Below, in pieces: positions 1 through 29,205 of a stretch of DNA of 64,000 bases (position 1 is its first letter; each line of letters starts with the position of its first letter). The stretch covers positions 38,858,200 to 38,922,199 of the forward strand of contig OX246744.1 in NCBI GenBank assembly GCA_945910005.1. The letters run 5' to 3'. The notes beneath the pieces are model-generated. The model saw only the letters and a list, made by a program, of their open reading frames with translations, made no database searches and had not been told where the DNA came from. A program made the position numbers and the translations under genes. Source of the stretch: Isoperla grammatica. Lineage: Eukaryota; Arthropoda; Insecta; Plecoptera; Perlodidae.

Positions 1-3000
1 TGTTGACCGTCATGTGAATCCACTGCCCCGCGACGGCCTCCACGGGACTCTCGCCCTCCGAGTGGAAGTCAGACAACATGACCTCCGTGTACTCACCCTG
101 AGCTCCCTGCCCCTGTTGACCGTCATGTGAATCCACTGCCCCGCGACGGCCTCCACGGGACTCTCGACCTCCGAGTGGATGTCAGACAACATGACCTCCG
201 TGTACTCACCCTGAGCTCCCCGCCCCTGTTGACCGTCATGTGTATCCACTGCCCCGCGACGGCCTCCAGGGGACTCTCGACTTCCGAGTGGAAGTCAGAC
301 AACATGACCTCCGTGTACTCACCTTGAGCTGCCCGCCCCTGTTGACTGCCACGAGTATCCACTGCCCCGCGACGGCCTCCACGGGACTCTCGACCTCCAA
401 GTGGAGGTCAGACAACATGACCTCCGTGTACTCACCCTGAGCTCCCCGCCCCTGTTGACCGCCACGTGTATCTACTGCCCCGCGACGGCCTCCACGGGAC
501 TCTCGACTTCCGAGTGGAAGTCAGACAACATGACCTCCGTGTACTCACCTTGAGCTGCCCGCCCCTGTTGACTGCCACGAGTATCCACTGCCCCGCGACG
601 GCCTCCACGGGACTCTCGACCTCCAAGTGGAGGTCAGACAACATGACCTCCGTGTACTCACCCTGAGCTCCCCGCCCCTGTTGACCGCCACGTGGATCCA
701 TTGCCCTGCGACGGCCTCCACGGGACTCTCGACCTCCGAGTGGAGGTCAGACAACATGACCTCCGTGTACCTACCATGAGCTCCCCGCCCCTGTTGACCG
801 CCACGTGTATCCATTGCCCTGCGACGGCCTCCACGGGACTCTCGACCTCCGAGTGGAGGTCAGAGGTCATGACCTCCGTGTACTCACCCTGAGCTCCCCG
901 CCCCTGTTGACCGCCACGTGTAGGCTATCCACTGCCCCGCGACGGCCTCCAGGGGACTTTTGACCTCCGAGTGGAGGTCAGACAACATGGCCTCCGTGTA
1001 CTCACCCTGAGCTCCACGCCCCTGTTGACCGCCACGTGTATCCACTGCCCCGCGACGTCCTCCAGGGGACTCTCGACCTCCGAGTGGAGGTCAGACAACA
1101 TGGCCTCCGTGTACTCGCCCTGAGCTCCCCGCCCCTGTTGACCGCCACGTGTAGGCTATCCACTGCCCTGCGACGGCCTCCAGGGGACTCTCGACCTCCG
1201 AGTGGAGGTCAGACAACATGGCCTCCGTGTACTCACCCTGAGCTCCCCGCCCCTGTTGACCGCCACGTGGATCCACTGCCCCGCGACGGACTCTACGGGA
1301 CTCTCGACCTCCGAGTGGAAGTCAGACAACATGGCCTCCGTGTACTCACCCTGAGCTCCCCGCCCCTGTTGACCGCCACGTGTATCCACTGCCCCGCGAC
1401 GGCCTCCAGGGGACTCTCGACTTCCGAGTGGAGGTCAGACAACATGGCCTCCGTGTACTGAGCTCCCCGCCGCTGTTGACCGCCACGTGTATCCATTGCC
1501 CCGCGACGGCCTCCACGGGACTCTCGACCTCCGAGTGGAGGTCAGGAAACATGACCTCCGTGTACTCACCCTGAGCTCCCCGCCCCTGTTGACCGCCACG
1601 TGTATCCACTGCCCCGCGACGGCCTCCAGGGGACTCTCGACCTCCGAGTGGAGGTCAGACAACATGACCTCCGTGTACTCACCCTGAGCTCCCCGCCCCT
1701 GTTGACCGCCACGTGTATCCATTGCCCTGCGAGTGCCTCCAGGGGACACTCGACCTCCGAGTGGAGGTCAGACAACATGACCTCCGTGTACTCACCCTGA
1801 GCTCCCCGCCCCTGTTGACCGCCACGTGTATCCACTGCCCCGCGACGGCCTCCAGGGGACTCTCGACCTCCGAGTGGAGGTCAGACAACATGACCTCCGT
1901 GTACTCACCCTGAGCTCCCCGCCCCTGTTGACCGCCACGAGTATCCACTGCCCCACGACGGCCTCGACGGGACTCTCGACCTCCGAGTGGAGGTCAGACA
2001 ACATGACCTCCGTGTACTCACCCTGAGCTCCTCGCCCCTGTTGACCGCCACGTGTATCCACTGCCGCGCGACGGCCTCCAGGGGACTCTCGCCCTCCGAG
2101 TGGAGGTCAGACAACATGACCTCCGTGTACTCACCCTGAGCTCCTCGCCCCTGTTGACCGCCACGTGTATCCACTGCCCCGCGACGGCCTCCAGGGGACT
2201 CTCGACCTCCGAGTGGAGGTCAGACAACATGGCCTCCGTGTACTCACCCTGAGCTACCCGCCCCTGTTGACCGCCACGTGTATCCACTGCCCCGCGACGG
2301 CCTCCAGGGGACTCTCAACCTCCGAGTGGAGGTCAGACAACATGGCCTCCGTGTACTCACCCTGAGCTCCTCGCCCCTGTTGACCGCCACGTGTATCCAC
2401 TGCCCCGCGACGGCCTCCACGGGACTCTCGACCTCCGAGTGGAGGTCAGACAACATGGCCTCCGTGTACTGAGCTCCCCGCCCCTGTTGACCGCCACGTG
2501 TATCTACTGCCCCGCGACGGCCTCCACGGGACTCTCGACCTCCGAGTGGAGTTCAGACAACATGACCTCCGTGTACTCACCCTGAGCTCCCCGCCCCTGT
2601 TGACCGCCACGTGTATCCATGGCCCCGCGACGGCCTCCACGGGACTCTCGACCTCCGAGTGGAGGTCAGACAACATGACCTCCGTGTACTCACCCTGAGC
2701 TCCTCGCCCCTGTTGACCGCCACGTGTATCCACTGCCCCACGACGTCCTCCAGGGGACTCTCGACCTCCGAGTGGAGTTCAGACAACATGACCTCTGTGT
2801 ACTCACCCTGAGCTCCCCGCCCCTGTTAAACGCCACGTGGATCCACTGCCCCGCGACGGCCTCCAGATGACTCTCGACCTCCAAGTGGAGGTCATACAAC
2901 ATGGCCTCCGTGTACTGAGCTCCCCGCCCCTGTTGACCGCCACGTGTATCCACTGCCTTGCGACGGCCTCCTGGGGACTCTCGACCTCCAAGTGGAGGTC

Positions 3001-6000
3001 AGACAACATGGCCTCCGTGTACTCACCCTGAGCTACCCGCCCCTGTTGACCGCCACGTGTATCCACTGCCCCGCGACGGCCTCCATGGGACTCTCGCCCT
3101 CCGAGTGGAGGTCAGACAACATGGCCTCCGTGTACTCACCCTGAGCTCCCCGCCCCTGTTGACCGCCACGTGTATCCACTGCCCCACGACGGCCTCCAGG
3201 GGCCTCTCGACCTCCGAGTGGAGGTCAGACAACATGACCTCCGTGTACTCACCCTGAGCTCCCCGCCCCTGTTGACCGCCACGTGTATCCACTGCCCCGC
3301 GACGGCCTCCACGGGACTCTCGCCCTCCGCGTGGAGGTCAGACAACATGGCCTCCGTGTACTCACCCTGAGCTCCCTGCCCCTGTTGACCGCCACGTGAT
3401 TCCACTGCCCCGCGACGGCCCCCAGGGGACTCTCGACCTCCGAGTGGAAGTCAGAACACCAAGGCCTCCGTGTACTCACCCTGAGCTCCCTGCCCCTGTT
3501 GACCGCCACGTGTATCCACTGCCCCGCGACGGCCTCCAGGGGACTCTCGACCTCCGAGTGGAAGTCAGAACACCAAGGCCTCCGTGTACTCACCCTAAGC
3601 TCCCCGCCCCTGTTGACCGCCACGTGTATCCACTGCCCCGCGACGGCCTCCAGGGGACTCTTGACCTCCGTGTGGATGTCAGACAACATGGCCTCCGTGT
3701 ACTCACCCTGAGCTCCCCGCCCCTGATGACCGCCACGTGTATCCACTGCCCCGCGACGGCCTCCACGGGACTCTTGACCTCCGTGTGGATGTCAGACAAC
3801 ATGGCCTCCGTGTACTCACCCTGAGCTCCCTGCCCCTGTTGACTGCCACGTGTATCCACTGCCCCGCGACGGCCTCCAGGGGACTCTTGACCTCCGTGTG
3901 GATGTCAGACAACATGGCCTCCGTGTACTCACCCTGAGCTCCCTGCCCCTGTTGACTGCCACGTGTATCCACTGCCCCGCGACGGCCTCCACGGGACTCT
4001 TGACCTCCGTGTGGATGTCAGACAACATGGCCTCCGTGTACTCACCCTGAGCTCCCTGCCCCTGTTGACCGCCACGTGTATCCACTGCCCCGCGACGGCC
4101 TCCACGGGACTCTTGCCCTCCGAGTGGAAGTCAGACAACATGACCTCCGTGTACTCACCCTGAGCTCCCTGCCCCTGTTGACTGCCACGTGTATCCACTG
4201 CCCCGCGACGGCCTCCACGGGACTCTTGCCCTCCGAGTGGAAGTCAGACAACATGGCCTCCGTGTACTCACCCTGAGCTCCCTGCCCCTGTTGACCGCCA
4301 CGTGTATCCACTGCCACGTGACGGCCTCCAGGGGACTCTCGACCTCCGAGTGGAAGTCAGAACACCAAGGCCTCCGTGTACTCACCCTGAGCTCCCTGCC
4401 CCTGTTGACCGCCACGTGTATCCACTGCCCCGCGACGGCCTCCAGGGGACTCTTGCCCTCCGAGTGGAGGTCAGACAACATGACCTCCGTGTACTCACCC
4501 TGAGCTACCCGCCCCTGTTGACCGCCACGTGTATCCACTGCCCCGCGACAGCCTCCACGGGACTCTCAACCTCCAAGTGGAGGTCAGACAACATGGCCTC
4601 CGTGTACTCACCCTGAGCTCCCCGCCCCTGTTGACCGCCACGTGTATCCACTGCCTTGCGAGAGCCTCCACGGGACTCTCAACCTCCGAGTGGAGGTCAG
4701 ACAACATGGCCTCCGTGTACTCACCCTGAGCTCCTCGCCCCTGTTGACCGCCACGTATATCCACTGCCCCGCGACGGCCTCCACGGGACTCTCGCCCTCC
4801 GAGTGGAGGTCAGACAACATGGCCTCCGTGTACTCACCCTGAGCTCCCCGCCCCTGTTGACCGCCACGTGTATCCACTGCCCCGCGACGGCCTCCAGGGG
4901 ACTCTCGACCTCCGAGTGGAGGTCAGGCAACATGGCCTCCATGTACTCACCCTGAGCTCCCCGCCCCTGTTGACCGCCACGTGTATCAACTGCCCCGCGA
5001 CGGCCTCCAGGGGACTCTCGCCCTCCGAGTGGAGGTCAGACAACATGACCTCCGTGTACTCACCCTGAGCTCCCCGCCCCTGTTGACCGCCACGTGTATC
5101 CACTGCCCCGCGACGGCCTCCAGGGGACTCTCAACCTCCGAGTGGAGGTCAGACAACATGGCCTCCGTGTACTCACCCTGAGCTTTCGCCCCTGTTGACC
5201 GCCACGTGTATCCACTGCCCCGCGACGGCCTCCAGGGGACTCTCGACCTCCGAGTGGAGGTCAGACAACATGGCCTCCGTGTACTCACCCTGAGCTCCTC
5301 GCCCCTGTTGACCGCCACGTGTATCCACTGCCCCGCGACGGCCTCCACGGGACTCTCGAACTTCAAGTGGAGGTCAGACCACATGACCTCCATGTACTCA
5401 CCCTGAGCCTCCCGCCCCTGTTGACCGCCACGTGTATCCACTGCCCCGCGACGGCCTCCACGGGACTCTCGCCCTCCGAGTGGAGGTCAGACATCATGGC
5501 CTCCGTGTACTCACCCTGAGCTCCTCGCCCCTGATGACGGCCACGTGTATCCAATGTTCCGCGACGGCCTCCACGGGACTCTCGAACTCCAAGTGGAGGT
5601 CAGACCACATGACCTCCATGTACTCACCCTGAGCCTCCCGCCCCTGTTGACCGCCACGTGTATCCACTGCCCCGCGACGGCCTCCACGGGACTCTCGCCC
5701 TCCGAGTGGAGGTCAGACAACATGACCTCCGTGTACTCACCCTGAGCTCCCCGCCCCTGTTGACCGCCACGTGTATCCACTGCCCCGCGACGGCCTCCAG
5801 GGGACTCTTGCCCTCCGAGTAGAGGTCAGACAACATGACCTCCGTGTACTCACCCTGAGCTCCCCGCCCCTGTTGACCGCCACGTGTATCCACTGCCCCG
5901 CGACGGCCTCCACGGGACTCTCGCCCTCCGAGTCAAGGTCAGACAACATGGCCTCCGTGTACTCACCCTGAGCTCCCTGCCCCTGTTGACCGCCACGTGT

Positions 6001-9000
6001 ATCCACTGCCCCGCGACGGCCTCCACGGGACTCTCGACCTCCGAGTGGAGGTCAGACAACATGGCCTCCGTGTACTCACCCTGAGCCTCCCGCCCCTGTT
6101 GACCGCCACGTGTATCCACTGCCCCGCGACGGCCTCCACGAGACTCTCGCCCTCCGAGTGGAGGTCAGACAACATGGCCTCCGTGTACTCACCCTGAGCT
6201 CCCCGCCCCTGTTGACCGCCATGTATTTCCACTGCCCCGCGACGGCCTCCACGGGACTCTCGCCCTCCGAGTGGAGGTCAGACAACATGGTCTCCGTGTA
6301 CTCACCCTGAGCTCCCCGCCCCTGTTGACCGCCACGTGTATCCACTGCCCCGCGACGGCCTCCAGGGGACTCTTGCCCTCCGAGTGGATGTCAGACAACA
6401 TGGTCTCCGTGTACTCACCCTGAGCTCCTCGCCCCTGTTGACCGCCATGTATATCCACTGCCCCGCGACGGCCTCCACGGGACTCTCGCCCTCCGAGTGG
6501 AGGTCAGACAACATGGCCTCCATGTACTCACCCTGAGCCTCCCGCCCCTGTTGACCGCCACGTGCATCCACTGCCCCGCGACGGCCTCCACGGGACTCTC
6601 GACCTCCGAGTGGAGGTCAGACCACATGACCTCCATGTACTCACCCTGAGCCTCCCGCCCCTGTTGACCGCCACGTGCATCCACTGCCCCGCGACGGCCT
6701 CCACGGGACTCTCGAACTCCAAGTGGAGGTCAGACCACATGACCTCCATGTACTCACCCTGAGCCTCCCGCCCCTGTTGACCGCCACGTGCATCCACTGC
6801 CCCGCGACGGCCTCCACGGGACTCTCGACCTCCGAGTGGAGGTCAGACAACATGGCCTCCGTGTACTCACCCTGAGCTCCTCGCCCCTGTTGACCGCCAC
6901 GTGTATCCACTACCCCGCAACGGCCTCCACGGGACTCTCGACCTCCGAGTGGAGGTCAGACAACATGGCCTCCGTGTACCTGCCCTGAGCTCCCCGCCCC
7001 TGTTGACCGCCACAAGTATCCACTGCCCCGCAACAGCCTCCAGGGGACTCTCGACCTCCGAGTGGAGGTCGGACAACATGACCTCCGTGTACTCACCCTG
7101 AGCTCCCCGCTCCTGTTGACCGCCACGTGTATCCACTGCCCCGCGACGGCCTCCACGGGACTCTCCACCTCCGAGTGGAGGTCAGACAACATGACCTCCG
7201 TGTACTCACCCTGAGCTCCCCGCCCCTGTTGACCGCCACGTGTATCCACTGCCCCGCGACGGCCTCCAGGGGACTCTCGACCTCCAAGTGGAAGTAAGAC
7301 AACATGACCTCCGTGTACTCACCCTGAGCTGCCCGCCCCTGTTGACCGCCACGTGTATCCACTGCCCCGCGACGGCCTCCAGGGGACTCTCGACCTCCAA
7401 GTGGAAGTAAGACAACATGACCTCCATGTACTCACCCTGAGCTTCCCGCCCCTTTTGACTGCCACGTGTATCAACTGCCCCGCGACGTCCTCTACGGGAC
7501 TCTCGCCCTCTGAGTGGAGGTCAGACAACATGACCTCCATGTACTCACCCTGAGCTCCCCGCCCCTGTTGACCGCCACGTGTATCAACTGCCCTGCGACG
7601 TCCTCTACGCGACTCTCGCCCTCCGAGTGGAGGTCAGACAACATGACCTCCGTGTACTCACCCTGAGCTCCCCGCCCCTGTTGACCGCCACGTGTATCCA
7701 CTGCCCCGCGACGGCCTCTACGGGACTCTCGACCTCCGAGTGGTAGTAAGACAACATGACCTCCGTGTACTCACCCTGAGCTCCCCGCCCCTGTTGACCG
7801 CCACGTGTATCCACTGCCCCGCGACAGCCTCCATGGGACTCTCGCCCTCCCGAGTGGAGGTCAGACAACATGACCTCCGTGTACTCACCCTGAGCTCCCC
7901 GCCTCTGTTGACCGCCACGTGTATCCACTGCCTCGCGACGGCCTCCTGGGGACTCTCGACCTCCAAGTGGAGGTCAGACAACATGGCCTCTGTGTACTCA
8001 CCCTGAGCTACCCGCCACTGTTGACCGCCACGTGTATCCACTGCCCCGCGACGGCCTCCATGGGACTCTCGCCCTCCGAGTGGAGGTCAGACATCATGGC
8101 CTCCGTGTACTCACCCTGAGCTCCCCGCCCCTGTTGACCGCCACGTGAATCCACTGCCCCACGACGGCCTCCAGGGGACTCTCGACCTCCGAGTGGAGGT
8201 CAGACAACATGACCTCCGTGTACTCACCCTGAGCTCCCCACCCCTGTTGACCGCCACGTGTATCCACTGCCCCGCGACGGCCTCCACGGGACTCTCGCCC
8301 TCCGAGTGGAGGTCAGACAACATGACCTCCGTGTACTCACCCTGAGCTCCCCCCCCTGTTGAGCGCCACGTTTATCCACTGCCCCGCGACGGCCTCCAGG
8401 GGACTCTCGCCCTCCGAGTGGAGGTCAGACAACATGGCCTCCGTGTACTCACCCTGAGCTCCCTGCCCCTGTTGACCGCCACGTGTATCCACTGCCCCGC
8501 GACGGCCTCCACGGGACTCTCGACCTCCGAGTGGAGGTCAGACAACATGGCCTCCGTGTACTCACCCTGAGCCTCCCGCCCCTGTTGACCGCCACGTGTA
8601 TCCACTGCCCCGCGACGGCCTCCACGAGACTCTCGCCCTCCGAGTGGAGGTCAGACAACATGGCCTCCGTGTACTCACCCTGAGCTCCCCGCCCCTGAAC
8701 ACCGCCATGTATTTCCACTGCCCCGCAACGGCCTCCACGGGACTCTCGACCTCCGAGTGGAGGTCAGACAACATGGCCTCCGTGTACTCACCCTGAGCTC
8801 CCCGCCCCTGTTGACCGCCACGTGTATCCACTGCCCCGCGACGGCCTCCAGGGGACTCTCAACCTCCGAGTGGAGGTCGGCAAACATGACCTCCGTGTAC
8901 TCACCCTGAGCTCCCCGCTCCTGTTGACCGCCACGTGTATGCACTGCCCCGCGACGGCCTCCACGGGACTCTCCACCTCCGAGTGGAGGTCAGACAACAT

Positions 9001-10373
9001 GACCTCCGTGTTCTCACCCTGAGCTCCCCGCCCCTGTTGACCGCCACGTGGATCCACTGCCCCGCGACGGCCTCACCGGGACTCTCAACCTCCGAGTGGA
9101 GGTCAGACAACATGGCCTCCGTGTACTCACCCTGAGCTCCCCGCCCCTGTTGACCGCCACGTGTATCCACTGCCCCGCGACGGCCTCCAGGGGACGCTCG
9201 CCCTCCGAGTGGAGGTCAGACAACATGACCTTCGTGTACTCACCCGGAGCTCCCCGCCCCTGTTGACCGCCACTTGTATTCACTGCCCCGCGACGGCCTC
9301 CACGGGACTCTCGACCTCCGTGTGGAGGTCAGACAACATGACCTCCGTGTACTCACCCTGAGATCCCCACCCCTGTTGACCGCCACGTGTATCCACTGCC
9401 CCGCGACGGCCTCCAGGGGACTCTCGCCCTCCGAGTGGAGGTCAGACAACATGACCTCCGTGTACTCACCCTGAGCTCCCCGCCCCTGTTGACCGCCACG
9501 TGTATCCACTGCCGCTCCACGGCCTCCAGGGGACTCTCGCCCTCCGAGTGGAGGTCAGACAACATGGCCTCCGTGTACTCACCCTGAGCTCCTCGCCCCT
9601 GTTGACCGCCACGTGTATCCACTCCCCCGCGACGGCCTCCACGGGACTCTCAACCTCCGAGTGGAGGTCAGACAACATGGCCTCTGTGTACTCACCCTGA
9701 GCTCCCCGCCCCTGTTGACCGCCACGTGTATCCACTGCCCCGCGACGGCCTCCAGGGGACTCTCAACCTCCGAGTGGAGGTCAGACAACATGACCTCCGT
9801 GTACTTACCCTGAGCTCCTCGCCCCTGTTGACCGCCACGTGTATCCACTCCCCCGCGACGGCCTCCACGGGACTCTCAACCTCCGAGTGGAGGTCAGACA
9901 ACATGGCCTCCGTGTACTCACCCTGAGCTCCTCGCCCCTGTTGACCGCCACGTGTATCCACTCCCCCGCGACGGCCTCCACGGGACTCTCAACCTCCGAG
10001 TGGAGGTCAGACAACATGGCCTCCGTGTACTCACCCTGAGCTCCTCGCCCCTGTTGACCGCCACGTGTATCCACTGCCCCGCGACGGCCTCTACGGGACT
10101 CTCGACCTCCGAGTGGAGGTCAGACAACATGACCTCCGTGTACTTACCCCGAGCTCCCCGCCTCTGTTGACCGCCACGTGTATCCACTGCCCCGCGACGG
10201 CCTCCACGGGACTCTCGACCTCCGAGTGGAGGTCAGACAACATGATCTCCGTGTACTCACCCTGAGCTCCCCGCCCCTGTTGACCGCCACGTGTATCCAC
10301 TGCCCCGCGACGGCCTCCACGGGACTCTCGACCTCCGAGTGGAGGTCAGACAACATGATCTCCGTGTACTCAC
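1..10373 (-). repeat. 113-bp minisatellite made of LamG exon 3' half plus its 5' splice site (~92 copies)
   Basis: Read on the minus strand, each unit starts GTGAGTACACGGAGG, continues with LamG exon sequence (...GGCAGTGGATACACGTGG...) and ends CTCAGG before the next GTGAG. Arithmetic fits exactly: 141 exon bases from the Tyr of EYTEV to the exon end, minus 34 deleted, plus 1, plus 5 intron bases gives 113. Most copies keep the donor AGG|GTGAGT; a few have GTAAGT, GTAGGT or GC. Three units (near 1459, 2469, 2915) lost 6 bp and with it the donor. The unit is not a multiple of 3, so it cannot be one continuous coding region. The array runs off the left edge. The overlapping 66- and 89-codon open frames here are products of the repeat. 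Confidence 0.95.
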
Positions 10374-10586
10374 CCTGAGCTCCCCGCCCCTGTTGACCGC
10401 CACGTGGATCCACTGCCCCGCGACGGCCTCCAGGGGACTCTCGACCTCCGAGTGGAGGTCAGCGCGGTAGGTCCGCAGCTTGATGCGACCTCGCTCCAAC
10501 ATCACCTCCGTGTATTCGTCGGAGTTTTCCCCCGGCATCAGAAGCAACACACCGTCGATCGTGTCCAATCTCACAGCCACCTCTAC
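10374..10586 (-). CDS. Exon 11: second LamG core (intact source exon of the 113-bp array)
   Basis: 213 bp, phase 0-0, 71 codons: VEVAVRLDTIDGVLLLMPGE, then EYTEVMLERGRIKLRTYRAD, then PLEAVAGQWIHVAVNRGGEL. The D-G-V-L-L and W-I-H-V-A-V motifs are LamG hallmarks. Acceptor GTTGCATCTCCAG|GTA, donor AGG|GTGAGT. Codons 25-71 minus 34 internal bases (the ERGRIKLRTYR part), plus the first 5 intron bases, form the array filling 1-10373. The next exon lies outside the window. Confidence 0.9.
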
Positions 10587-13500
10587 CTGGAGATGCAACG
10601 TATACGAATCATGTAGTCCCTATGTTTCACTCCGGACGTGATGCTTTCCGGCAACATTACATTTAGATTTGTTTTTTTTTAACTATATTTCATAGAAAAA
10701 TGAGCTTTATAAAAACATAAAATCCCTCATAAAGTGTACAATTCAAAAAAGAATCCCCAAAAGTGTAAACAGAAATTTAAAAAAGGCTAGAACGTCAAGA
10801 AAAAATCAGGGAAAAATGTTTCCTAAAATAAATTTAAAATTGTATTTTTATACGAATTTGGGTTCTATCACAAATCTGCAATTTGGTAAATATGGGACAC
10901 CTCAAAATTTTACAAATTGTACAAAACATGGCAGTGGGTTAATTATTTTATTTAGGGCAGTATTTCTATTAGTTGAGTATCAGTGTTTACGTATGACCGT
11001 ACCAGCCAGTGGTCCTCGTTGACGGGGCACGAGGCCTCAATGAAAGCTCCGTCAGCAAAGTGTCGGAAACCCTCCTCGACATTCCTGTCTGTCGTCTCGT
11101 AGTGGACATTGGAGGCGTCATACGGTGCCACTCCAGCGTTGTTGGCCTTCTAAACACAGAAGAGTCTCATATTACGGAAATACTTCTATCTACCTACCTA
11201 TCTATCTAAAACCACTTCCAGTCGGATCGCAAGACTGCTACAAGACATTGAAACATGAAGACAGCGAGACGTGGTTTTGTAAAGACTACAGACTATAATG
11301 ACGGGTGATGGGGATCACCAAAGCGTGCTCCAATAAAGCTACCCTTCATTTTGATGTCTCCCTTGCCGCTTGTGCAGTTCTGGTGTCGGTAAAGAAAACT
11401 GTGAAACATTTCCAATATTTTAGTGAGTAGGGTTATAATAGTATTCTCTCGGAATGCACCCCTACTGTATAAAATATTAGACACATTTATCACTGAGTCT
11501 ATAATTCTTACAAAATCATTGTGCGTTTTCGAGACATCATTTAAACCGTTTAACTGGAACCAGCGTTTCGTCTTCTAGAGAAGATAATCACAAATATTAT
11601 TACTATTTGGTGGTAAACGACGTACTCAACAAGGCCATATGACGTCGGGGAGTTATTGGAGGAAAAAGGAGTTCCATCTTCTAACTAGGGCCTACATCGA
11701 ATAATCGGAAACCGGTTACGTAGGAAACCGGTTTTCATTTCGTAAACCGGTTTTTCGAAAATAAAAAAATCACGTTTTTTAAATACGCCGCGCTTTCCCG
11801 TGGAACACTAGGCGCATTCGGTATGCAGGTCCGGGTGTCGTGTGTCGAGTGTCGAGTGCCGACTCGACACTCGACACTTGCTCAACGCAGCGCTTTTCAT
11901 CTCGCTTTTCACTCACCAGTCACTTTGTTCGGCAGCCGCGTCTCCCCCCCCTCCAACCGCTCCCAACCCACAGCGCAACACGCCTGGCCAGTACTCAACT
12001 TCCCGAATACGCGCGGACATCATAATGTGTGTTTGTCGTGAGAGCTGTTTAGTGCAGCGTCGGCGGGGCGGGGGGGGGGGGGGGGGGGGAATAATACACA
12101 CACAAAATCAGTTTTTTTTGTTTTTTTTGCATTTTTTGGAATATAGGCCTACACAACTTTTTTTTTTGCGTTTTTTTTTTTAACCGGTTTTTAACCGTTT
12201 TTTTAAACGATTATCCGCTTCGTAAAAATACTATTCGGTGTAGGCCCTACTTCTAACGCACCTGGTTGTCTCGCTTGTGGCTCAGGACAAGCCTGTTGAA
12301 GTTGACCGCGAGGCTCTCGATGTGACCTTGGAACTTCTCCCCGACCTTCATGGACATGTCCATCTCGGAGGCGGGGGGGACACAGCTCAACTTTGTCTCA
12401 AACTGGTCGGTGCCATCGTCGATCCTCATCGTTATCTTCGTGCCCGTCACCGTCAGCAGCGCTTCGTGCCACACGTCCATCTGTTGACGTATTCATGTTT
12501 ATAGTCCCACCCCCTTATACACTTCTTAAATTTCTATTTATTTCATATTTTCACTTGGTAAAAGCTTTCCTCAGGTTCTAAAGTTACCGACTCTGTTGCA
12601 ACGAGATTCAACATATTCATGGAGTCCTTTAATTTACATTCGTAAAGGTGGTCTTTTGTTTATATGAGCAGGCCAGAAAAGGAAGCAGTTTTATATTGGA
12701 TAGTAAGACAAAAGAATGGCTGAAAAAGCCATCTTGGCACAAGAAGGAAAAAAAAAAAAAGAGTGCACAAGCTTTATTTGTCACGCCCCCTGTGTTCGGA
12801 ATTTCCCGGTAAACAATACACGTTCGTAAATTAACCCTAGTAGATCTGTTTCATGTAGACGTAGAAACCAGAGAAGTAGAAGATTAAGTTGGTACTTATT
12901 GGAGTCTGATATTTTGTCAGTACATATGAGACTAGCTTAATCGAGACAAATTTAATTTACTTTTGTTTCAACCTTTTACTATTGTCTTGCGCTTGATGTT
13001 CATACTGTGTCTGTGTGTTTATTGGCATTCTGTGGAAATCAGTCCTTGTCAGGTGGTCATCGCTTACTTTACGCGTGAGCCAAGTAACTTACGTCTAGTT
13101 TACTTCCACTGACGGCCGTGGCGACGCAGCCCTGAACGTTAACGTGCCAAACGAGGTAGGAAGACTCGAGGTGTAGCTGCATAACATCACACTTGGACCC
13201 CTTGCAACCCTCACTGTGACGTGTCACGAGCTGACCCCAGGGGTAGACGGGCATGAACCTTATGTAGAGGTGCAGCAGGCGCGAAGGCTGGCCCAGCGGC
13301 ATGTAAGACAACACACTGTCTCCGTGGAACACTGCGACCTCGTGTACCTTGCCTGAAACACAGCACCGTTGTTTCAAGTTGTCCCAACGAGACCCTTATC
13401 TACCACACTGTTGTGTTCAACTAAACTCAACAGATGCCCGACGTTCTTCACACAGTCGGGAAGTAGAGTACACGAGCCTTATTAATCACGCACATTAATC

Positions 13501-16500
13501 ATCATCAGTGTAAGACTAGTTATGTTTGGACAACTTTATGTAGCAAGACAGATTCATTATCAGATGAGAATATAATTTTAAAACTATATTAGGCTATTAT
13601 GCTATAACTAGGGACACCGAAATTTCGCGAATGGGTTTTAAGCGAAATTTTCCCAAATGTAGAAAAACACATTTTTGTGGACAAGACAACCCCTTGGGAC
13701 CCTAAAAACGTCAAAAAACATTCGCGAAATGGAGCGAAATAAGACTGTTTTGACATTTATTGGCAAAATACAAGCAATTATATAGTTTTCCGCTAAATTT
13801 GAGCGAAATCGGTAAGTTTACCCGATTTTCCGTGTCATTTTGATGTGTCTCGTGCGAAAATGCGTAATTTGACAGCTCGGCTAGAATTTTGTTTTTTCCG
13901 TAGTTGGTACACCGCCGAAAATGGTAAGTTCCCGACGACTAATCGAATTTTTGTCTGTTGGTTACACTGGTGCAATAATTCTTTTCGACCTAATCGAATG
14001 TATTTTCGCTTCGACTTTCGACTTCCGTTCATGATCGATCGATCGATCATTTATCGTTCCGTGTTGTCTTAAAGAATTTCGTCATGCCGAAGGTGGTTGA
14101 CCGTCAGCGTGAGTTTGAAAATGAAGGTTTTTACGTTTTTGATTAAAAAATTCAAATAATGATGTGCAAGTTTTGCAACGCGCGAAAATTCGAAACTAGG
14201 CCTAGGCCAAGGTAGGCTATGTAACTTAAATACAGGCTAGGCCTCACTATTTCACTGTGAAGTATGTGCATATACAAGGTTATGCCTTGCAAACTACTAT
14301 TGTTTGTTGAACAGACTTGTTTTCTTGTCTTACTTGTGCAAGGCCCCAAGTAGCACTGCTGCATCTCCAAGGGGGGGCCCACACAAGGGGCGGGGGAGCG
14401 TTGCAAGATGGTGACTAACTACTTGGAATGAACAGACTTGTGTTCTTGTCTTACATGTGCAAGGCCCCAAGTAGCAGTGCTGCATCTCCAAGGGGGGGCC
14501 CACACAAGGGGCGGGGGAGCGTTGCAAGATGGTGACTAACTACTTGGAATGAACAGACTTGTGTTCTTGTCTTACTTGTGCAAGGCTTCAAGTAGCACTG
14601 CTGCATCTCCAAGGGGGGGCCCACACAAGGGGCGGGGGAGCGTTGCAAGATGGTGACTAACTACTTGGAATGAACAGACTTGTGTTCTTGTCTTACTTGT
14701 GCAAGGCCCCAAGTAGCACTGCTGCATCTCCAAGGGGGGGCCCACACAAGGGGCGGGGGAGCGTTGCAAGATGGTGACTAACTACTTGGAATGAACAGAC
14801 TTGTGTTCTTGTCTTACTTGTGCAAGGCCCCAAGTAGCACTGCTGCATCTCCAAGGGGGGGCCCACACAAGGGGCGGGGGAGCGTTGCAAGATGGTGACT
14901 AACTACTTGGAATGAACAGACTTGTGTTCTTGTCTTACATGTGCAAGGCCCCAAGTAGCAGTGCTGCATCTCCAAGGGGGGCCCACACAAGGGGCGGGGG
15001 AGCGTTGCAAGATGGTGACTAACTACTTGGAATGAACAGACGTGTGTTCTTGTCTTACTTGTGCAAGGCCCCAAGTAGCACTGCTGCATCTCCAAGGGGG
15101 GGCCCACACAAGGGGCGGGGGAGCGTTGCAAGATGGTGACTAACTACTTGGAATGAACAGACGTGTGTTCTTGTCTTACTTGTGCAAGGCCCCAAGTAGC
15201 ACTGCTGCATCTCCAAGGGGGGGCCCACACAAGGGGCGGGGGGGCGTTGCAAGATGGTGACTAACTACTTGGAATGAACAGACGTGTGTTCTTGTCTTAC
15301 TTGTGCAAGGCCCCAAGTAGCACTGCTGCATCTCCAAGGGGGGGCCCACACAAGGGGCGGGGGAGCGTTGCAAGATGGTGACTAACTACTTGGAATGAAC
15401 AGACTTGTGTTCTTGTCTTACTTGTGCAAGGCCCCAAGTAGCAGTGCTGCATCTCCAAGGGGGGGCCCACACAAGGGAAGCCCCTGCCGTATCGCGGAGG
15501 AGCGTTGCAAGATCGGGCTCTGTACTGGACGCCGAAGCCACAGGTAACCGAACACGCGGACCACTTCTCCCACGCCGACCAACCGCCATCCACTGCAACC
15601 AACCCGACACATTTCACAACACTACAAGCCTACATTAATTATCATCCTTATAGCAAAACCAGCTTTAATATGCTCATGTGTAAATAAGAGACTGCCAAAA
15701 AACTTGGGCAACAAAGTTTTGTGAGAGAAAAGATGCCAACAGCTTACCTGAGTAGATGGTCAGATGTTGGCAAACTATCTCTCACACAACTTAAATGTAC
15801 ATATGTGGTAATGTCGCATAATGTGGTGAACTAGTATTTTCTTGCACCGTGTTCTACAAACATACTATCACCACTCTAGTGCTGCGTGTGAAGTCTATTG
15901 TGATCATCAACGTCTATATTGCACAATCTAAGTGTGGCAACAAAGCAAATCTTCCGTCATTTCTGTTGTTTACATTTCATACTTGTGGTTACAATGTGAC
16001 AATACACTCATGGATTTTGATGTTCACAGACAAACAAATCTGTTCTAGATACGCCTCTTTTCTGATGTAACGCATCAACGTAAGGTGTAAACGTACGGTC
16101 ACAATCCCTAAGGTTGCATTCCTCAAACTCTTCGCTGGGCCCGGAGCAGCTGTTTCCCGCATCAACCGTCTTCACCAGTTGTGTGGCGATCTGGCGCGGT
16201 GTCAAGTTGCGTCTATCTGCAAACAGTACGCGTTCATTTAGTTACTAAGTAAAACCATAACCTCATTTTTAAATGTGCCATTATTTCATATCTACCTAGT
16301 TTCTATTCAATTATGATTTAAATTCTATATAAAATTTGTTGTTTCTTTCTAAGACAAAATGACCCCCCCCCCCCCCTCCCCCACCAATTTTGAATTTTTA
16401 AGCTGCTGTGGCAACCACTGTATTGAGTGTTTAACATGTTCACTTCGTGTGCACATTTTTGTATAATTGAAATATGTTTTCTTCCTTGCCAAAGACAGCA

Positions 16501-19500
16501 ACTAATTGTTCCCCGACTGTGTTCTAACACGTGTGATGTAGTGAGTGAGTACCAACCGCCAGAGATGGCCGGCAATGTCGCCTCTTTCTTCTTGCGACTC
16601 CCGGTACAGACTCGCTCCCGTCTCCTGTATCCTGAGCCGCACTCTTTGCTGCATCCAGACCACTCAGACCACTGACTCCAGCTGCCGTCTAGAACAGTGA
16701 CAAGTATCTGTACTGCATCCTGACCACTCAGACCACTGACTCTAGAACAGTGACAAGTATCTGTACTGCATCCTGACCACTCAGACCACTGACTCCAGCT
16801 GCCGTCTAGAACAGTGACAAGTATCTGTACTGCATCCTGACCACTCAGACCACTGACTCCAGCTGCCGTCTAGAACAGTGACAAGTATCTGTACTGCATC
16901 CTGACCACTCAGACCACTGACTCTAGAACAGTGACAAGTATCTGTACTGCATCCAGACCACTCAGACCACTGACTCTAGAACAGTGACAAGTATCTGTAC
17001 TGCATCCTGACCACTCAGACCACTGACTCCAGCTGCCGTCTAAAACAGTGACAAGTATCTGTACTGCATCCTGACCACTCAGACCACTGACTCTAGAACA
17101 GTGACAAGTATCTGTACTGCATCCAGACCACTCAGACCACTGACTCTAGAACAGTGACAAGTATCTGTACTGCATCCTGACCACTCAGACCACTGACTCT
17201 AGAACAGTGACAAGTATCTGTACTGCATCCTGACCACTCAGACCACTGACTCTAGAACAGTGACAAGTATCTGTACTGCATCCTGACCACTCAGACCACT
17301 GACTCCAGCTGCCGTCTAGAACAGTGACAAGTATCTGTACTGCATCCTGACCACTCAGACCACTGACTCTAGAACAGTGACAAGTATCTGTACTGCATCC
17401 TGACCACTCAGACCACTGACTCTAGAACAGTGACAAGTATCTGTACTGCATCCTGACCACTCAGACCACTGACTCTAGAACAGTGACAAGTATCTGTACT
17501 GCATCCTGACCACTCAGACCACTGACTCTAGAACAGTGACAAGTATCTGTACTGCATCCTGACCACTCAGACCACTGACTCCAGCTGCCGTCTAGAACAG
17601 TGACAAGTATCTGTACTGCATCCTGACCACTCAGACCACTGACTCCAGCTGCCGTCTAAAACAGTGACAAGTATCTGTACTGCATCCTGACCACTCAGAC
17701 CACTGACTCTAGAACAGTGACAAGTATCTGTACTGCATCCTGACCACTCAGACCACTGACTCTAGAACAGTGACAAGTATCTGTACTGCATCCAGACCAC
17801 TCAGACCACTGACTCTAGAACAGTGACAAGTATCTGTACTGCATCCTGACCACTCAGACCACTGACTCTAGAACAGTGACAAGTATCTGTACTGCATCCT
17901 GACCACTCAGACCACTGACTCCAGCTGCCGTCTAGAACAGTGACATGTATCTGTACTGCATCCTGACCACTCAGACCACTGACTCCAGCTGCCGTCTAAA
18001 ACAGTGACAAGTATCTGTACTGCATCCTGACCACTCAGACCACTGACTCTAGAACAGTGACAAGTATCTGTACTGCATCCTGACCACTCAGACCACTGAC
18101 TCTAGAACAGTGACAAGTATCTGTACTGCATCCAGACCACTCAGACCACTGACTCTAGAACAGTGACAAGTATCTGTACTGCATCCTGACCACTCAGACC
18201 ACTGACTCTAAAACAGTGACAAGTATCTGTACTGCATCCTGACCACTCAGACCACTGACTCTAGAACAGTGACAAGTATCTGTACTGCATCCAGACCACT
18301 CAGACCACTGACTCTAGAACAGTGACAAGTATCTGTACTGCATCCTGACCACTCAGACCACTGACTCTAGAACAGTGACAAGTATCTGTACTGCATCCTG
18401 ACCACTCAGACCACTGACTCTAGAACAGTGACAAGTATCTGTACTGCATCCTGACCACTCAGACCACTGACTCCAGCTGCCGTCTAGAACAGTGACAAGT
18501 ATCTGTACTGCATCCTGACCACTCAGACCACTGACTCTAGAACAGTGACAAGTATCTGTACTGCATCCTGACCACTCAGACCACTGACTCTAGAACAGTG
18601 ACAAGTATCTGTACTGCATCCTGACCACTCAGACCACTGACTCTAGAACAGTGACAAGTATCTGTACTGCATCCTGACCACTCAGACCACTGACTCTAGA
18701 ACAGTGACAAGTATCTGTACTGCATCCTGACCACTCAGACCACTGACTCCAGCTGCCGTCTAGAACAGTGACAAGTATCTGTACTGCATCCTGACCACTC
18801 AGACCACTGACTCCAGCTGCCGTCTAGAACAGTGACAAGTATCTGTACTGCATCCTGACCACTCAGACCACTGACTCTAGAACAGTGACAAGTATCTGTA
18901 CTGCATCCTGACCACTCAGACCACTGACTCTAGCTGCCGTCTAGAACAGTGACAAGTATCTGTACTGCATCCTGACCACTCAGACCACTGACTCTAGAAC
19001 AGTGACAAGTATCTGTACTGCATCCTGACCACTCAGACCACTGACTCCAGCTGCCGTCTAGAACAGTGACAAGTATCTGTACTGCATCCTGACCACTCAG
19101 ACCACTGACTCTAGAACAGTGACAAGTATCTGTACTGCATCCTGACCACTCAGACCACTGACTCTAGCTGCCGTCTAGAACAGTGACAAGTATCTGTACT
19201 GCATCCTGACCACTCAGACCACTGACTCCAGCTGCCGTCTAGAACAGTGACAAGTATCTGTACTGCATCCTGACCACTCAGACCACTGACTCCAGCTGCC
19301 GTCTAGAACAGTGACAAGTATCTGTACTGCATCCTGACCACTCAGACCACTGACTCTAGAACAGTGACAAGTATCTGTACTGCATCCTGACCACTCAGAC
19401 CACTGACTCCAGCTGCCGTCTAGAACAGTGACAAGTATCTGTACTGCATCCTGACCACTCAGACCACTGACTCTAGAACAGTGACAAGTATCTGTACTGC

Positions 19501-22500
19501 ATCCTGACCACTCAGACCACTGACTCTAGAACAGTGACAAGTATCTGTACTGCATCCTGACCACTCAGACCACTGACTCCAGCTGCCGTCTAGAACAGTG
19601 ACAAGTATCTGTACTGCATCCTGACCACTCAGACCACTGACTCTAGAACAGTGACAAGTATCTGTACTGCATCCTGACCACTCAGACCACTGACTCCAGC
19701 TGCCGTCTAGAACAGTGACAAGTATCTGTACTGCATCCTGACCACTCAGACCACTGACTCTAGAACAGTGACAAGTATCTGTACTGCATCCTGACCACTC
19801 AGACCACTGACTCTAGAACAGTGACAAGTATCTGTACTGCATCCTGACCACTCAGACCACTGACTCCAGCTGCCGTCTAGAACAGTGACAAGTATCTGTA
19901 CTGCATCCTGACCACTCAGACCACTGACTCTAGAACAGTGACAAGTATCTGTACTGCATCCTGACCACTCACACCACTGACTCCAGCTGCCGTCTAGAAC
20001 AGTGACAAGTATCTGTACTGCATCCTGACCACTCAGACCACTGACTCCAGCTGCCGTCTAGTACAGTGACAAGTATCTGTACTGCATCCTGACCACTCAG
20101 ACCACTGACTCTAGAACAGTGACAAGTATCTGTACTGCATCCTGACCACTCAGACCACTGACTCTAGAACAGTGACAAGTATCTGTACTGCATCCTGACC
20201 ACTCAGACCACTGACTCTAGAACAGTGACAAGTATCTGTACTGCATCCTGACCACTCAGACCACTGACTCTAGAACAGTGACAAGTATCTGTACTGCATC
20301 CTGACCACTCAGACCACTGACTCCAGCTGCCGTCTAGAACAGTGACAAGTATCTGTACTGCATCCTGACCACTCAGACCACTGACTCTAGAACAGTGACA
20401 AGTATCTGTACTGCATCCTGACCACTCAGACCACTGACTCCAGCTGCCGTCTAGAACAGTGACAAGTATCTGTACTGCATCCTGACCACTCAGACCACTG
20501 ACTCTAGAACAGTGACAAGTATCTGTACTGCATCCTGACCACTCAGACCACTGACTCTAGAACAGTGACAAGTATCTGTACTGCATCCTGACCACTCAGA
20601 CCACTGACTCTAGAACAGTGACAAGTATCTGTACTGCATCCTGACCACTCAGACCACTGACTCTAGAACAGTGACAAGTATCTGTACTGCATCCTGACCA
20701 CTCAGACCACTGACTCTAGAACAGTGACAAGTATCTGTACTGCATCCTGACCACTCAGACCACTGACTCTAGAACAGTGACAAGTATCTGTACTGTAGAC
20801 TGAGAAATAAGCTAATCATTCTAACCTTACAAGTAAAACCTAGGAACCTTCGGCTTGACAGGTTGTTGTCGGTCATTCTCTCCTTGCCCGAGCTAAACTT
20901 AAGGGTCTGATACTGAATGAAGCAAAACCAAACAGTAGTTGGTTGCTTGGCAAAGTTATCTCATATTGACTCGTACATCATTCAAACCAAGCTGTGACTG
21001 TGTGACAACCACTACTTGTGAAAATACTACTTAAGTGTGTGTCAAGATTTAAAGTGTCGAGGTCCGTTAATCCCCTAATGGAGGTTCAGTAACTGAGTTT
21101 GACGAGCCTACGCCAGGGGATTTATCGACCTTGCTTAAGTATCCACCAATAACAATCACGTTCTGCATATATCATTTACACTCATTTTTACGTGAACACA
21201 CATTTACAAAAATAATTGCAAATTTTCAAGTTTGGCTGCTGCAATCTTAAAAAGGAATCAATCCAAATTAAATTATTACTCCCTGCCCAATGATATGAGC
21301 AGGCCAGAAAAGGAAGCAGTTTTATATTGGATAGTAAGTCAAAAGAATGGCTGAAAAAGCCATCTTGGCACAAGAAGGAAAAAAAAAAAAAAAATTATTT
21401 CTCAGGCGTACCAATAATGATGTAATTAATATTACCATCCTCGTCGGCGCACGCTAGGCCCGTACACGCTTGAGAGTCTAAACCCTTTCCTTGGCAGTCA
21501 ACGTCTGGGGTGGACGGTCGCGGGTTGGTACAACTGCGCGTGCGGTATTGCAAGCCGGGGCCACATTTGGCTGAGCAGGCAGTCCAAGTAGCCCAGTTGG
21601 TCCAACCTCCTCGTACTGGCGGAACAAGACAAACGCAACATTGCCTTGTTTCAAACATTTTCTCAACCTTATAAGATAACTTGGTTCATAAATCATAATT
21701 TATAATTTTTTTTTAAACTTCACCTATATTTCATCGCTCTCTCTGTCTCTAGATGAGTCCTATACTTTGTATCGATCAAACGAATCAAAATGCCAACGCA
21801 TTTAATAGTTTCAATATCATACTTTAACGTACTTAAAACGATAACACAAAGTATTAATTAATGTGTCAAAGACGTTTTTTGAACGGAATCGTTTTAACAT
21901 TTTTGGCTATATCATTTATCTTCTGCGAGAACCAGAGTTCCTTGCTTTTTCAGAGTCCTCGACTATTATCTCCAACCCGAGTAATTTCTGCTGAATCTCG
22001 GTAAAACTAAAACCTAACGAGCTGTCTGTGTTTGAGTATAATACGAAGAAGCTTACCAGGGCACCCAACATTCTGCTTCACACAAAGCAGGGAGATCCAA
22101 TAGTCCATCTAGAACAGAAGACAGAAGACACGCTCTCTTGTGATGGATTCTGGTCATAATAAATAAATACATTCGTATTTATAGAGTAATAATAGTTTGT
22201 ATACTGCGCTACATTAGCTACCCGCTTAGGTAGAGATGATTTACAGTGAAATTAACAATAACACATGATTATGCAAGAAGGCATACAAGTCAAACTAACA
22301 TAGGCCTACATTGGCTAAGAACAAAGATTGTTGAGAGTACTAAACAACTGAACGTTTAAATAAATTAGGTGGCTCATAAGTAGGCTAGTTTTGCAATGAC
22401 TTGGATATCTTTGCTATTTTTGAGGATTGTATTACCAAAAGTTATAAATGAAAACTTTAACTTTATAACTAGACCATTCTTTAATTTTAATAGCTGTACT

Positions 22501-23932: not shown

Positions 23933-24386
23933 CTGCAAGCACAACAAACACTCTTAATCTACGTCTTGACACTCCTGCTCAACAAGTGGACAGAATGACA
24001 AACATTGGGCTCACCTGCTTTTCCATATCTGTTTAAAAACAATATGTAGAGAAAGAGTTTTAGAAAAAACATCTTCTTAATAATTCCACACATTTTGTAT
24101 GCGGTTGTTACCATGGATATAGTGTGTCCACGCACAAATTATGTGTTGCTTGTATACAACAAAGTTTTGTAATAATTAAAAATGAAATCTCAACAATAGT
24201 ATGTTCAAAAATCAAATTATGTTTGGATTGAATGTTTTTATTAAGACAAATATGTGGCCTCTGCCTATGTACTGCCAATTTGCTAAATTAAAACCAGCCC
24301 CTCACAATTTCAGTTGATCAGCTGCAAAAAAAATTAAGTCTTATCTTAATTGAGTAAAACTATTTGCAATGTGTATTTATCTAGGA

Positions 24387-24502
24387 TGTCCAGTTAAAGT
24401 GTCAAGTAAATTTAACTGTCAGGTAAGCCCAGTTTGGTGTATTTCTATTGGCCGTTGTCATGGTGAAAACAATTTAACTGAGAAGTAGATTTTAACTGGA
24501 CA
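24387..24502. mobile_element. Short MITE with TGTCCAGTTAAA inverted ends
   Basis: A 116-bp element bounded by TGTCCAGTTAAA and TTTAACTGGACA. A related end with the same CTGGACATGGAAATACCGGCC context occurs near 57012-57043, showing a dispersed family. Confidence 0.6.
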
Positions 24503-27060
24503 TTGAAATACCGGCCCTAAGTGATTTAAAAATTTCTCAACATTGAAAGCATAGCCAGACTACAAAGGATTGCAGAATCAAATCATGGTTCAAGCCAAAT
24601 AAAAATATTAGAAGATATGCTGCCACTTACGATACATTTTATATGTTTATGTAGGCCGGAATCAATCGACCTTTTGAAAGGCATAATATCTGGAATTAAA
24701 ATCAGATAGGAGTCCAACCTCAATTGTCAGCATCGGAATTGGGATCAAATCGTACATTTGCTCATGCTAAATCATTACGACATTATGATGTTATTGTGAA
24801 CAACGCCATAAAAACAATTAAGTTAACTTTTTTCACGGTTTCTGGATGGCAATGGCAATGCCGACAATAATGTGGTTGGGGCTTTGTGGCTACAGTTACG
24901 AACGATCTGAAGTTATATACGTAGAATCAAGTTGAAAATAAACTCTCTAGTGGCAAGAGAAAAATGAACAATCACAAAAATCAACAAAGTAGAATAGGCA
25001 ACTTCTTGACTAATTCATATAAAAGTAAAGCACTTGCCAAAACATTCGTAAAAATTTGCAGTTCAGTGAAACTTTGATTTTACGTACCTTGAAACAACGA
25101 ATTCTTTGATGTTAAGTATTTTTTCCTGATCCCAGAAAGTAAAGTTAGTTTCTCATAACAATGTTGTTTGATTTTACAAATTCCTTGAATTAACAAATTT
25201 TTTGGTATACCCCATTACGTTCGTAAAATCAAAGTTTCATTGTATTCAAAATTTAAAAAAAAAATACTTTTCAAAATGTTTGTGAATCACTCTAACTTGG
25301 TAATTCCTAGTCACTCATTTGTCTATGGCAATACTGTACATTATATAAAGTGGTGTTACTTCAAAACCAGAAATAGTATTACGAGTGATATATAGATGCA
25401 GTTCATGTTTGAGCCTTGTTTTATTCTCGAAAACTTATTTGAGTAACTGCCAATAATAAATAATTGTAATAGTGCAGGAATTTGCCTCGCATTAAAAATG
25501 GTAAGTAGTTATAGAGCATGACTTTCAGCAAGATTAGTTTTATGGATATAAATCCACAATATTGCCTCTACACTACCAGCAGTGTCTTCGATGCATTTTG
25601 AAGTACCACTGCCCTTTTCAACAGGTGGCAGAGAGTCTCTATATTTCTGTTTAATGTTCCTTTTTAAATTTATTAAGTTGTTGCTTCATCAATCAATCAA
25701 TTAATCAATCAATAGTCGATTTGCTACTATAGGCCTACATGTTTAAAAATCATATAGGGTCAAACTTTATTTTCAAAACATCCTATTTAGTATTTACCTG
25801 TTACTGTAATATGACTATAGTACTGTCTAAAACAATTATTCTAACAGTGTAAATTGTTCATTCACTCCAATGATTATATTAAAGAAAAGTTATGTCAACT
25901 GAGTAGACCCACACTTTAAAATCAAATCTACCTCAATAGCTCAAGCCTCGATTTAGACACGGGATATTGTTGCACCTTTTGACAGCTCGAAGAACTAACG
26001 GCCATCCAGCGTGAGGTGTGACGGCCGGTTACCAACGGTTTTGTTATAAAACTTGAATGAGAACAATAAGCCCACGGGTAAACTGGCTTCTTCCCAAATA
26101 GGACATCCCAACAATTCAGGTGGCTGCAATGTAAAGGATTGGCATACACTGATGTGTGGGGATACCTTGTTTGTAAGATACAGATCCGTCCTTGAGTTTA
26201 CTTTCACTTGACGTCCTGTCGCAACTGCCCCTTCCACACGGCTCATACATATTTTAGTTTTGAATTTTGACTCTCCACTGTTGGAAACCTAACGAATAAC
26301 ACTCCAAACATGTATTTGTTTTTATTAAAAGGTCTCTATGATTAAGTCTCTTATCAACAGTGCTTACAGTAGCCGACATTTTGACGGACTAAAGCCACAA
26401 TCTGTTGAATGTACGTAAATCAGCATTTGATTTACATCCAGTGGAACGCTAGTATTTCCGTTTCCAACCAAAGGTAGCATCACAGTCTGGGTCCGAGGTA
26501 GAATTTGTTCAGGGTGACTCTGCCAATCATAAGAGCCAACCATTCCTTCCCTTAATCCCTGTGAATGTTAAGTCTTCCTCCCAATTGTTCCTTTACTTCA
26601 ATCACTCTCCGACATGACCTAGCTGACCACAAATAAGAACAAAACGTTGACCATAAATCTATTTTTAGAATTGAGGCTGGTGCTCGAGGATGTATTATTA
26701 CTTAGTAGACATACTTCTAACAGAATAGATTGCAAGTTCACTTAACTCGCAAGTCGGAGTAAATAAATGTTAGCGTAAATGCAACTTTGATAGTGTACAA
26801 CTACGTACACATAATGTGTAACTACTGACTATGCGATAAGACTTCACATAAACACTATGAACCTCGTAGACATTTGGCATGAAAATCAGAATCTTAATTT
26901 AAATAGACCTACTTAAATTTAACCAATTACTAATCCTTTTCGTGGGTCATTTAACAAACAGCCTTGTGAAAAGCGCTGGTGTGTGTGTGCACGTAAAGCA
27001 CTAGATAAGAACCAACTCGAGTAGAGCGTTGAATGTACATCGTGTGTTTACCCACCTGGG
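24503..27060. other. No supported gene
   Basis: A/T-rich sequence. At 25925-26250 (minus) there is a TTTACATTGCAG acceptor-like site followed by an open stretch (HLNCWDVLFGKKPVYPWAYC in one frame), but no domain match or phase support, so I do not call an exon. A short (AATC)n tract lies near 25688-25710. Confidence 0.4.
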
Positions 27061-27139
27061 GGCAGGTTGCCGGTACCGCCTTCACTTGATTCTCTTGACC
27101 AACGCACGCAGTTTGCACAGTTTGCTAGCTATCCTTGAG

Positions 27140-27470
27140 ATCAAGTGGTGACTAGCCGCCACATTCAAATGCATAGTTTGGTTCTCTCTGTTCTCTCTGT
27201 GCTACGAGGTCTGTGGTACCTACTGCGGTTGAAAAGGTCGGCGAAGGTCAAGCCGCCAGCCGTGCATGTCGCAGTGACGACAGCTGATCCAGTCGCTCCG
27301 GCAGACGAGCGAGCGGCTACGTCACAGGTCGGGTTGGACAACCTGGCGATGACTGTCGATGAGCCGGAAAGCTGCACGCTGCATCTAGCGCAGCCCGCTC
27401 CCCGGGTGTTGTACCGCCGGCCGGCATGTCAGCTCGTTGGACAATAACTTGTCCCCCCCCCCCCTTAACC
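27140..27470. other. GC-rich, coding-like island, unassigned
   Basis: Open on both strands for about 70-100 codons, in contrast to A/T-rich flanks. The minus frame reads GAGCARCSVQLSGSSTVIAR then LSNPTCDVAARSSAG, with several cysteines. The plus frame has a hydrophobic start (HSLVLSVLSVLRGLWYLL). No family recognised. It could be an upstream exon of the TSP1/LamG gene or a CpG-rich promoter. A C12 run follows at 27453-27464. Confidence 0.3.
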
Positions 27471-28960: not shown

Positions 28961-29100
28961 AGAGATAGATAGTTATTTGCGTCTCATATTTTTGCAACTT
29001 GGCTAATCTAGACGATGAGTGGGTAAAACGTGAGATTGAAATAGAGGGCTGTTTGGAGGAAAGGGGCAAGTGCATAGGGTGCCGGCGGCACGTACTTTTG
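28960..29100 (-). repeat. SINE/LINE-like dispersed repeat fragment
   Basis: CGTCTCATATTTTTGCAACT followed by TGGCTAATCTAGACGATGAG matches, in reverse, the 3' part of the elements at 56085-56405 and 56655-56965 (CTCGTTGCAAAAATACGAGA...). The adjoining GATAGATAGTTATTT looks like a simple-repeat tail. Confidence 0.5.
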
Positions 29101-29205
29101 TCCCGCTTTTTATTCAAAATTAGAGATTTTGTGTTTTTCAAACTTTACGCGTACTATTTCACATCCCTTTCTTTATTAACGTATGGGGTGTAATAACTTC
29201 ATCAA

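Follow-up and report, generated by a model that had tools for sequence, protein, structure and literature searches.

Mirages are tandem duplications of the minisatellite type that cover 5' or 3' exon-intron boundaries. They have been described in lancelets in Adh3, the globin genes BflGb6 and BflGb9, troponin C and PGBD5; their units measure 10 to ~160 bp, the arrays are unstable in length, many but not all units keep the AG or GT dinucleotide, and splicing is reported to be normal as judged by reverse transcription PCR (PMC3087553, PMC3902484). In human segmental duplications, internal tandem repeats at exon-intron boundaries change exon edges in recently duplicated genes (PMC2812944), and PMC12783039 describes intronic minisatellites and exon-4 duplications of earthworm metallothionein that are absent from the transcript. 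Here we describe boundary-spanning arrays in an insect, Isoperla grammatica (Plecoptera, Perlodidae), in a gene with thrombospondin type 1 (TSP1) and laminin G domains. The gene lies on the minus strand of a stretch of 64,000 nucleotides, hereafter the window (assembly GCA_945910005.1, contig OX246744.1, positions 38,858,200 to 38,922,199, numbered from 1 below). Genome stretches that were read are designated L### (L029 is the window flank) and scaffolds C##.

The gene comprises 18 exons (E1 to E18) encoding 1009 amino acids, with no stop across the joined reading frame. Three arrays in the window span its splice junctions, two at 5' splice sites (E11 and E7) and one at a 3' splice site (E5), and the whole exon is present at one end of each. 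A sequence-only reading of the window had reported these arrays and the intact in-frame exons beside them; their positions are confirmed, and the exons join in frame and match insect proteins. The arrays and their exons are:

1..10462, minus strand, array 1, 113-bp units across the E11 5' splice site; it continues 742 bp past the window in L029, giving ~11.2 kb and ~99 units in total
10374..10586, minus strand, E11, laminin G exon, intact, one end of the 113-bp array (in-frame join, orthologue comparison)
14308..15477, minus strand, array 2, 121-bp units across the E7 5' splice site, 10 donor sites counted
15422..15592, minus strand, E7, TSP1 exon, intact, one end of the 121-bp array (in-frame join)
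16557..16688, minus strand, E5, TSP1 exon, intact, one end of the 53/64-bp array (in-frame join)
16688..20795, minus strand, array 3, 53/64-bp units across the E5 3' splice site, 73 acceptor sites counted

The units contain canonical splice sites of the gene. The 113-bp unit covers the end of E11 together with the donor CTCAGG/GTGAGT (the slash marks the splice site here and below). In the 121-bp unit the last 92 nt of E7, minus 16, are joined to 45 nt of intron, the donor being CACAA/GTAAGA; the 64-bp unit combines 25 intronic nt with 39 nt of E5 and has the acceptor TTCTAG/ACGGCAG between them (lengths by eye). The 53-bp unit is the 64-bp form without the first 11 exon bases and reads TTCTAG/AGTC. 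Units are thus internally deleted relative to the exons, as the sequence-only reading had noted, by a net ~33 nt in the 113-bp unit (2 nt stand in place of 35; the earlier reading gave 34), 16 nt in the 121-bp unit and 11 nt in the 53-bp unit, all by eye. None of the four unit lengths is divisible by three, and reading frames through arrays 2 and 3 hit stops (frames checked over 10400-30000). At its distal end array 1 finishes in a single-copy donor, GAGG/GTGAGTTCAACTC, which we take as ancestral, so that the founder duplication probably joined intron position +6 to the exon. Where founder breakpoints are readable they show microhomology of 0-3 nt (by eye); the motif AGTAC, seen at three unit joints, is treated as a coincidence.

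The three cases of the earlier reading all stand, but their number was too low, as at least seven junctions are affected. Junction arrays occupy seven of the 35 exon borders, four 5' (E2, E7, E11 and E18) and three 3' (E5, E8 and E17), each with the exon at one end. Units of 157 bp, made of 17 nt of intron and 140 nt of E8, lie over the E8 3' splice site in most copies of the gene that were read, this site being single in the window; units of 65/72 bp lie over the E2 5' splice site in L011, L015 and L021; and the window's own flank carries an 82-bp array over the E17 3' splice site and a 112-bp array over the E18 5' splice site, both read in the window copy alone. No off-junction array was found in the gene among repeats that have units of at least 50 bp and reach three units or more in one copy or another, a criterion chosen after the arrays had been seen; smaller repeats below it occur in L012 (intron 4) and L009. 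The latter (C14:26934618-26944617) is a partial copy that has E7 and the E8 array, with a 112-bp, 2-unit repeat upstream, and E5 and E6 were not found in the 4.3 kb upstream in this stretch. The E15 acceptor with the first exon bases (TTGCAG/GGCAGCCAACT) recurs ~130 bp upstream in L029 (reverse complement, 4560-4720), perhaps as a nascent junction duplication.

The gene belongs to a multi-copy family. In a search of the genome with the TSP1 exons, for which 150 of 242 candidates were scored, E7 is found at at least 28 places, 16 on C14, 10 on C17, one on C44 and one on C108; copies lie in both orientations, at 26.9-41.1 Mb on C14, at 24.0-30.7 Mb on C17, and on C44 and C108. Twenty-five of the 28 were read, whole or in part, three on C17 (26709773, 27368092, 30333725) being left out; L004, L007 and L008, which are the same places as L027, L025 and L009, are excluded from the counts. 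Exons of the copies are 92-100% identical to those of the window. Array lengths differ widely between copies, in site counts that include the exon's own site and of which several are lower bounds. Array 2 is present in all 24 copies without a gap there and ranges from 2 donor sites (L024) to 46 (L019, cut by the stretch), and array 3 is present in every one of the 24 copies that have E5. At E8 the sites number 2-17 in 20 of the 22 copies where the junction is seen, against one site in the window and one in L006, where the stretch ends. E11 sites number 5-8 in four stretches, one in L025 (cut off), and 89 + 7 in the window copy. The E2 5' splice site runs through stages, from a single site in the window copy, in L013 and in L027 (with a cut nearby) to two in L021, at least two in L011 and seven in L015. 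Intron 7 of L024 (4334-5408) has lost its central part and is reduced to the E7 and E8 arrays, fused to each other. L017 was excluded from the unit statistics; at ~4515-4714 (gene orientation) it has an assembly gap inside the 121-bp array, followed by an unrelated 344-bp tandem repeat. The window flank 28900-29900 recurs near several gene copies and widely on C14 at 26-41 Mb, with at least 80 matches (40 of 870 candidates scored), and judging by the sequence may be a scaffold-limited repeat block or an ampliconic region.

In spite of these differences the exons are mostly intact. The 25 copies yielded 133 exons, all with AG/GT edges, in agreement with the earlier proposal that junctions were duplicated in tandem and the additional copies came to lie on the intron side; one of these exons contains a stop (E8 of L023). 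A coverage filter dropped 13 further exon matches. Of these, 12 are array units or matches cut by the end of the stretch, and the last is a real break: E9 of L027 (gene orientation 8232-8272), interrupted after 41 nt by unrelated sequence. Across 24 copies, E5-E7 have a pooled nonsynonymous to synonymous ratio (pN/pS) of 0.37, and values for single exons or exon pairs range over 0.19-0.60. These ratios suggest that some copies are constrained.

The likeness to the lancelet mirages lies in units that span an exon-intron boundary at both 5' and 3' sites (seven junctions here), in an authentic exon left intact at one end (with the stop in L023 E8 as an exception), and in length instability, seen here when paralogues are compared (array 2 holds 2-46 donor sites). 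They differ in that mirages are described there in cephalochordates, although the taxon is not a structural criterion; in that the longest array here has ~99 units, compared with 3 and 6 in two BflGb6 haplotypes; and in that seven junctions of one gene are affected here, with arrays at both ends of one intron and at least 28 gene copies. The human repeats (PMC2812944) are shorter (units of 30 bp on average, 4 copies) and half of them lie in coding sequence, whereas the exons here are unchanged in length. A duplication that carries splice signals is also the basis of intron gain by tandem genomic duplication, but no novel intron between duplicated exon pieces was found here, the exons joining as in the orthologues. 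The structure is thus that of a mirage, at unusual density, in a lineage for which no earlier report was found: no insect mirage was found in the literature searched, which is weak evidence of absence, as most subscription journals lay outside the search.

Arrays of this kind are not confined to the locus, and the idea that a mechanism or tolerance specific to it is at work does not hold: besides the lancelet cases, similar arrays lie in L001, L032 and L042 on other scaffolds. L001, on C7, is the best TSP1 match, looks ADAMTS-like by eye and carries 137-bp units across a 5' splice site; in L032, from a TSP1 gene on C2, the units measure 97 bp and the array spans a 3' splice site (both sites read by eye). 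These two, like L030/L031 in another TSP1-gene region of C2, were picked via TSP1 matches and are not a fair sample. A fairer one consists of 24 kinase exons out of 139 matches, with 450-bp flanks and predicted exon borders; they were hand-picked down the ranking for the lack of internal stops with the DNA unseen, and the few eligible matches skipped were two with open frames of 292-294 amino acids, others lower down and one look-alike. Two of the sample, L046 and L047, look like paralogues. In L042, CDK-like by eye, a 58-bp, 7-unit array lies over the predicted 5' splice site, and no other array of at least three units of at least 20 bp is present in the 24 kinase stretches. A 16-bp, 4-unit repeat begins exactly at the predicted donor in L038. 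A KSR kinase of this genome is 94% identical over 77% to a protein of the cockroach Diploptera punctata; this similarity and that of the TSP1/laminin G protein point to an insect host.

We consider it probable that the arrays are mirage-type minisatellites, that is, ordinary tandem duplications that began in GC-rich exon ends and are tolerated since the site next to the exon is the one used in splicing. The exons of the gene have 57% GC and its introns 39%. Short tandem duplications would have arisen at the GC-rich exon ends, reaching ~6-61 nt into the intron (by eye), and would have been tolerated because, with the copies on the intron side of an intact exon, exon-proximal splicing can still yield a normal mRNA. 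The extra copies would then have lost pieces, and grown and shrunk by unequal exchange. Selection would eliminate duplications confined to an exon, and since the exons are GC-rich, the arrays that survive would be those on junctions. Tolerance by splicing is the best available reading of the extra copies, and we infer from the genomic sequence that they are spliced out. Several observations weigh against this explanation. Units at E2 and E17 are mostly intronic (exonic over ~20/72 and ~21/82 nt), which fits seeding in exons less well; the three arrays of L030/L031 adjoin no exon seen; at least two copies are damaged (the L023 E8 stop and the L027 E9 break), so not every copy need be functional; the sequence pairs behind pN/pS are not independent; and the placement statistics given below leave room for a cause linked to junctions.

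A mutational process tied to splice junctions and acting species-wide, such as transcription- or R-loop-linked breakage at exon edges, is a less likely account, though it would draw on the same placement. When seven founder-length segments are placed at random in 13.9 kb, 2.0 are expected on borders, against seven of seven observed (p ~1e-4; the tests used 147 bp for the E11 founder, which is actually 146), and the three window arrays alone give p = 0.02 under uniform placement; the single qualifying array among the kinase exons, in L042, also spans a junction. The earlier argument that the placement is not chance weakens once segments are matched to the founder GC within 0.04, which brings p to ~0.02 for all seven. 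A tendency of GC-rich DNA to seed duplications, combined with selection against those that are purely exonic, would account for much of the excess, and a junction-specific process is not needed, even if the residual p leaves it some room; in addition, the L030/L031 arrays lie off any exon seen, and the distance from the splice site to the founder breakpoints is not constant (by eye). A function of the repeated sites in splicing, as decoys, spare sites or a length-dependent regulation, seems very improbable, although the dinucleotides are nearly always kept, with the exon's own included, in E5 (784/788), E7 (386/391), E8 (164/165) and E11 (118/120). The 64-bp E5 unit, with none of 374 AG broken and a conservation rank of 7/64, is the sole one to stand out; the others keep the site no better than many other unit positions, its rank being 25/113 in E11, 79/121 in E7, 47/53 in the shorter E5 unit, 104/157 in E8 and 102/112 in E18. 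Most E17 units lost the acceptor, its GCAG being kept in 2 of 12 besides the exon's own, and array length varies widely among copies with intact exon edges. The suggestion that the arrays act as splice-site sinks or reservoirs is accordingly not supported.

Exchange between exons and arrays is likelier than a reservoir role: seven of eight exonic variants carried by at least three copies at sites shared with units also occur as array variants, a hint that may be read in either direction. The diversity of E7 is sixfold higher in its array-side part (0.030) than in the rest (0.005), but of the five variants common in E7, three fall within the 16 nt missing from the units, and no array-side excess is seen in E5, E8 or E11. 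We therefore regard as doubtful the broader proposal that a genome-wide process preferentially turns splice junctions into minisatellites, strongly enough to affect at least seven of 35 borders in one gene, and that the arrays exchange sequence with their source exons and feed coding variation into a young multi-copy family. Steps towards new introns through tandem duplication of proto-splice sites, a route proposed for the lancelet mirages (PMC3087553), are hardly to be expected here, as no novel intron was found and the exons flanking arrayed introns join in frame with no extra sequence relative to orthologues. An assembly artefact from collapsed or mis-joined repeats, for which the scaffold gap inside array 2 of L017 might speak, is just as improbable: junction arrays in copies on C14, C17, C44 and C108 differ in length and unit variants, and flanks continue cleanly where read.

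The gene model behind these comparisons started from ten exons read from the sequence and joined in frame (a first model of 616 amino acids). E3, absent from that model, was added by tblastn with insect orthologues, which also corrected the end of E2 (first placed at 22683), and E12-E18 were added from the flank stretch. Pfam finds in the 616-amino-acid model four TSP_1 stretches and Laminin_G_2 above the cut-off, with Laminin_G_1 just below it. Among the 120 homologues listed of 143, the top one is a protein of Anabrus simplex (44% identity over 99% of the query); lower ranks include TSP1 and laminin G proteins of a stick insect, a cockroach and a moth. The remaining exons in the window are:

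23696..23932, minus strand, E1, TSP1 exon (AG/GT edges, in frame, orthologue match)
22687..22853, minus strand, E2, 5' splice site single here and in a 65/72-bp array in some sister copies (orthologue comparison)
22057..22108, minus strand, E3, MDYWISLLCVKQNVGCP (76% match to Anabrus and Bacillus rossius proteins)
21436..21615, minus strand, E4, TSP1 exon (in-frame join, orthologue comparison)
16097..16216, minus strand, E6 (in-frame join)
13093..13352, minus strand, E8, laminin G exon, 3' splice site single in the window (compared with sister copies)
12262..12480, minus strand, E9, laminin G exon (in-frame join)
11003..11149, minus strand, E10 (in-frame join)

Two introns of the gene hold near-identical copies, at 12668-12760 and 21295-21385, of a short element with a run of A at its end (by eye). 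Six more minisatellite arrays lie in the window, none assigned to a gene (30050-33501, 33767-34065, 36055-37465, 38542-40297, 43727-47957 and 61312-61933). The other window arrays were tested as hidden junctions and gave one unusual donor-like site, CAAC/GTAAGTAT, within the 65-bp units at 30050 when these are read on the minus strand (7/500 shuffles).

Mirages have so far been described gene by gene in lancelets. With at least 28 similar copies, in stages from one unit to ~99, this family makes the birth, growth and cost of a mirage measurable, and its arrays are natural constructs that place dozens of nearly identical splice sites next to a single real exon edge. Gene predictors could be misled at such loci, because each unit resembles an exon edge.

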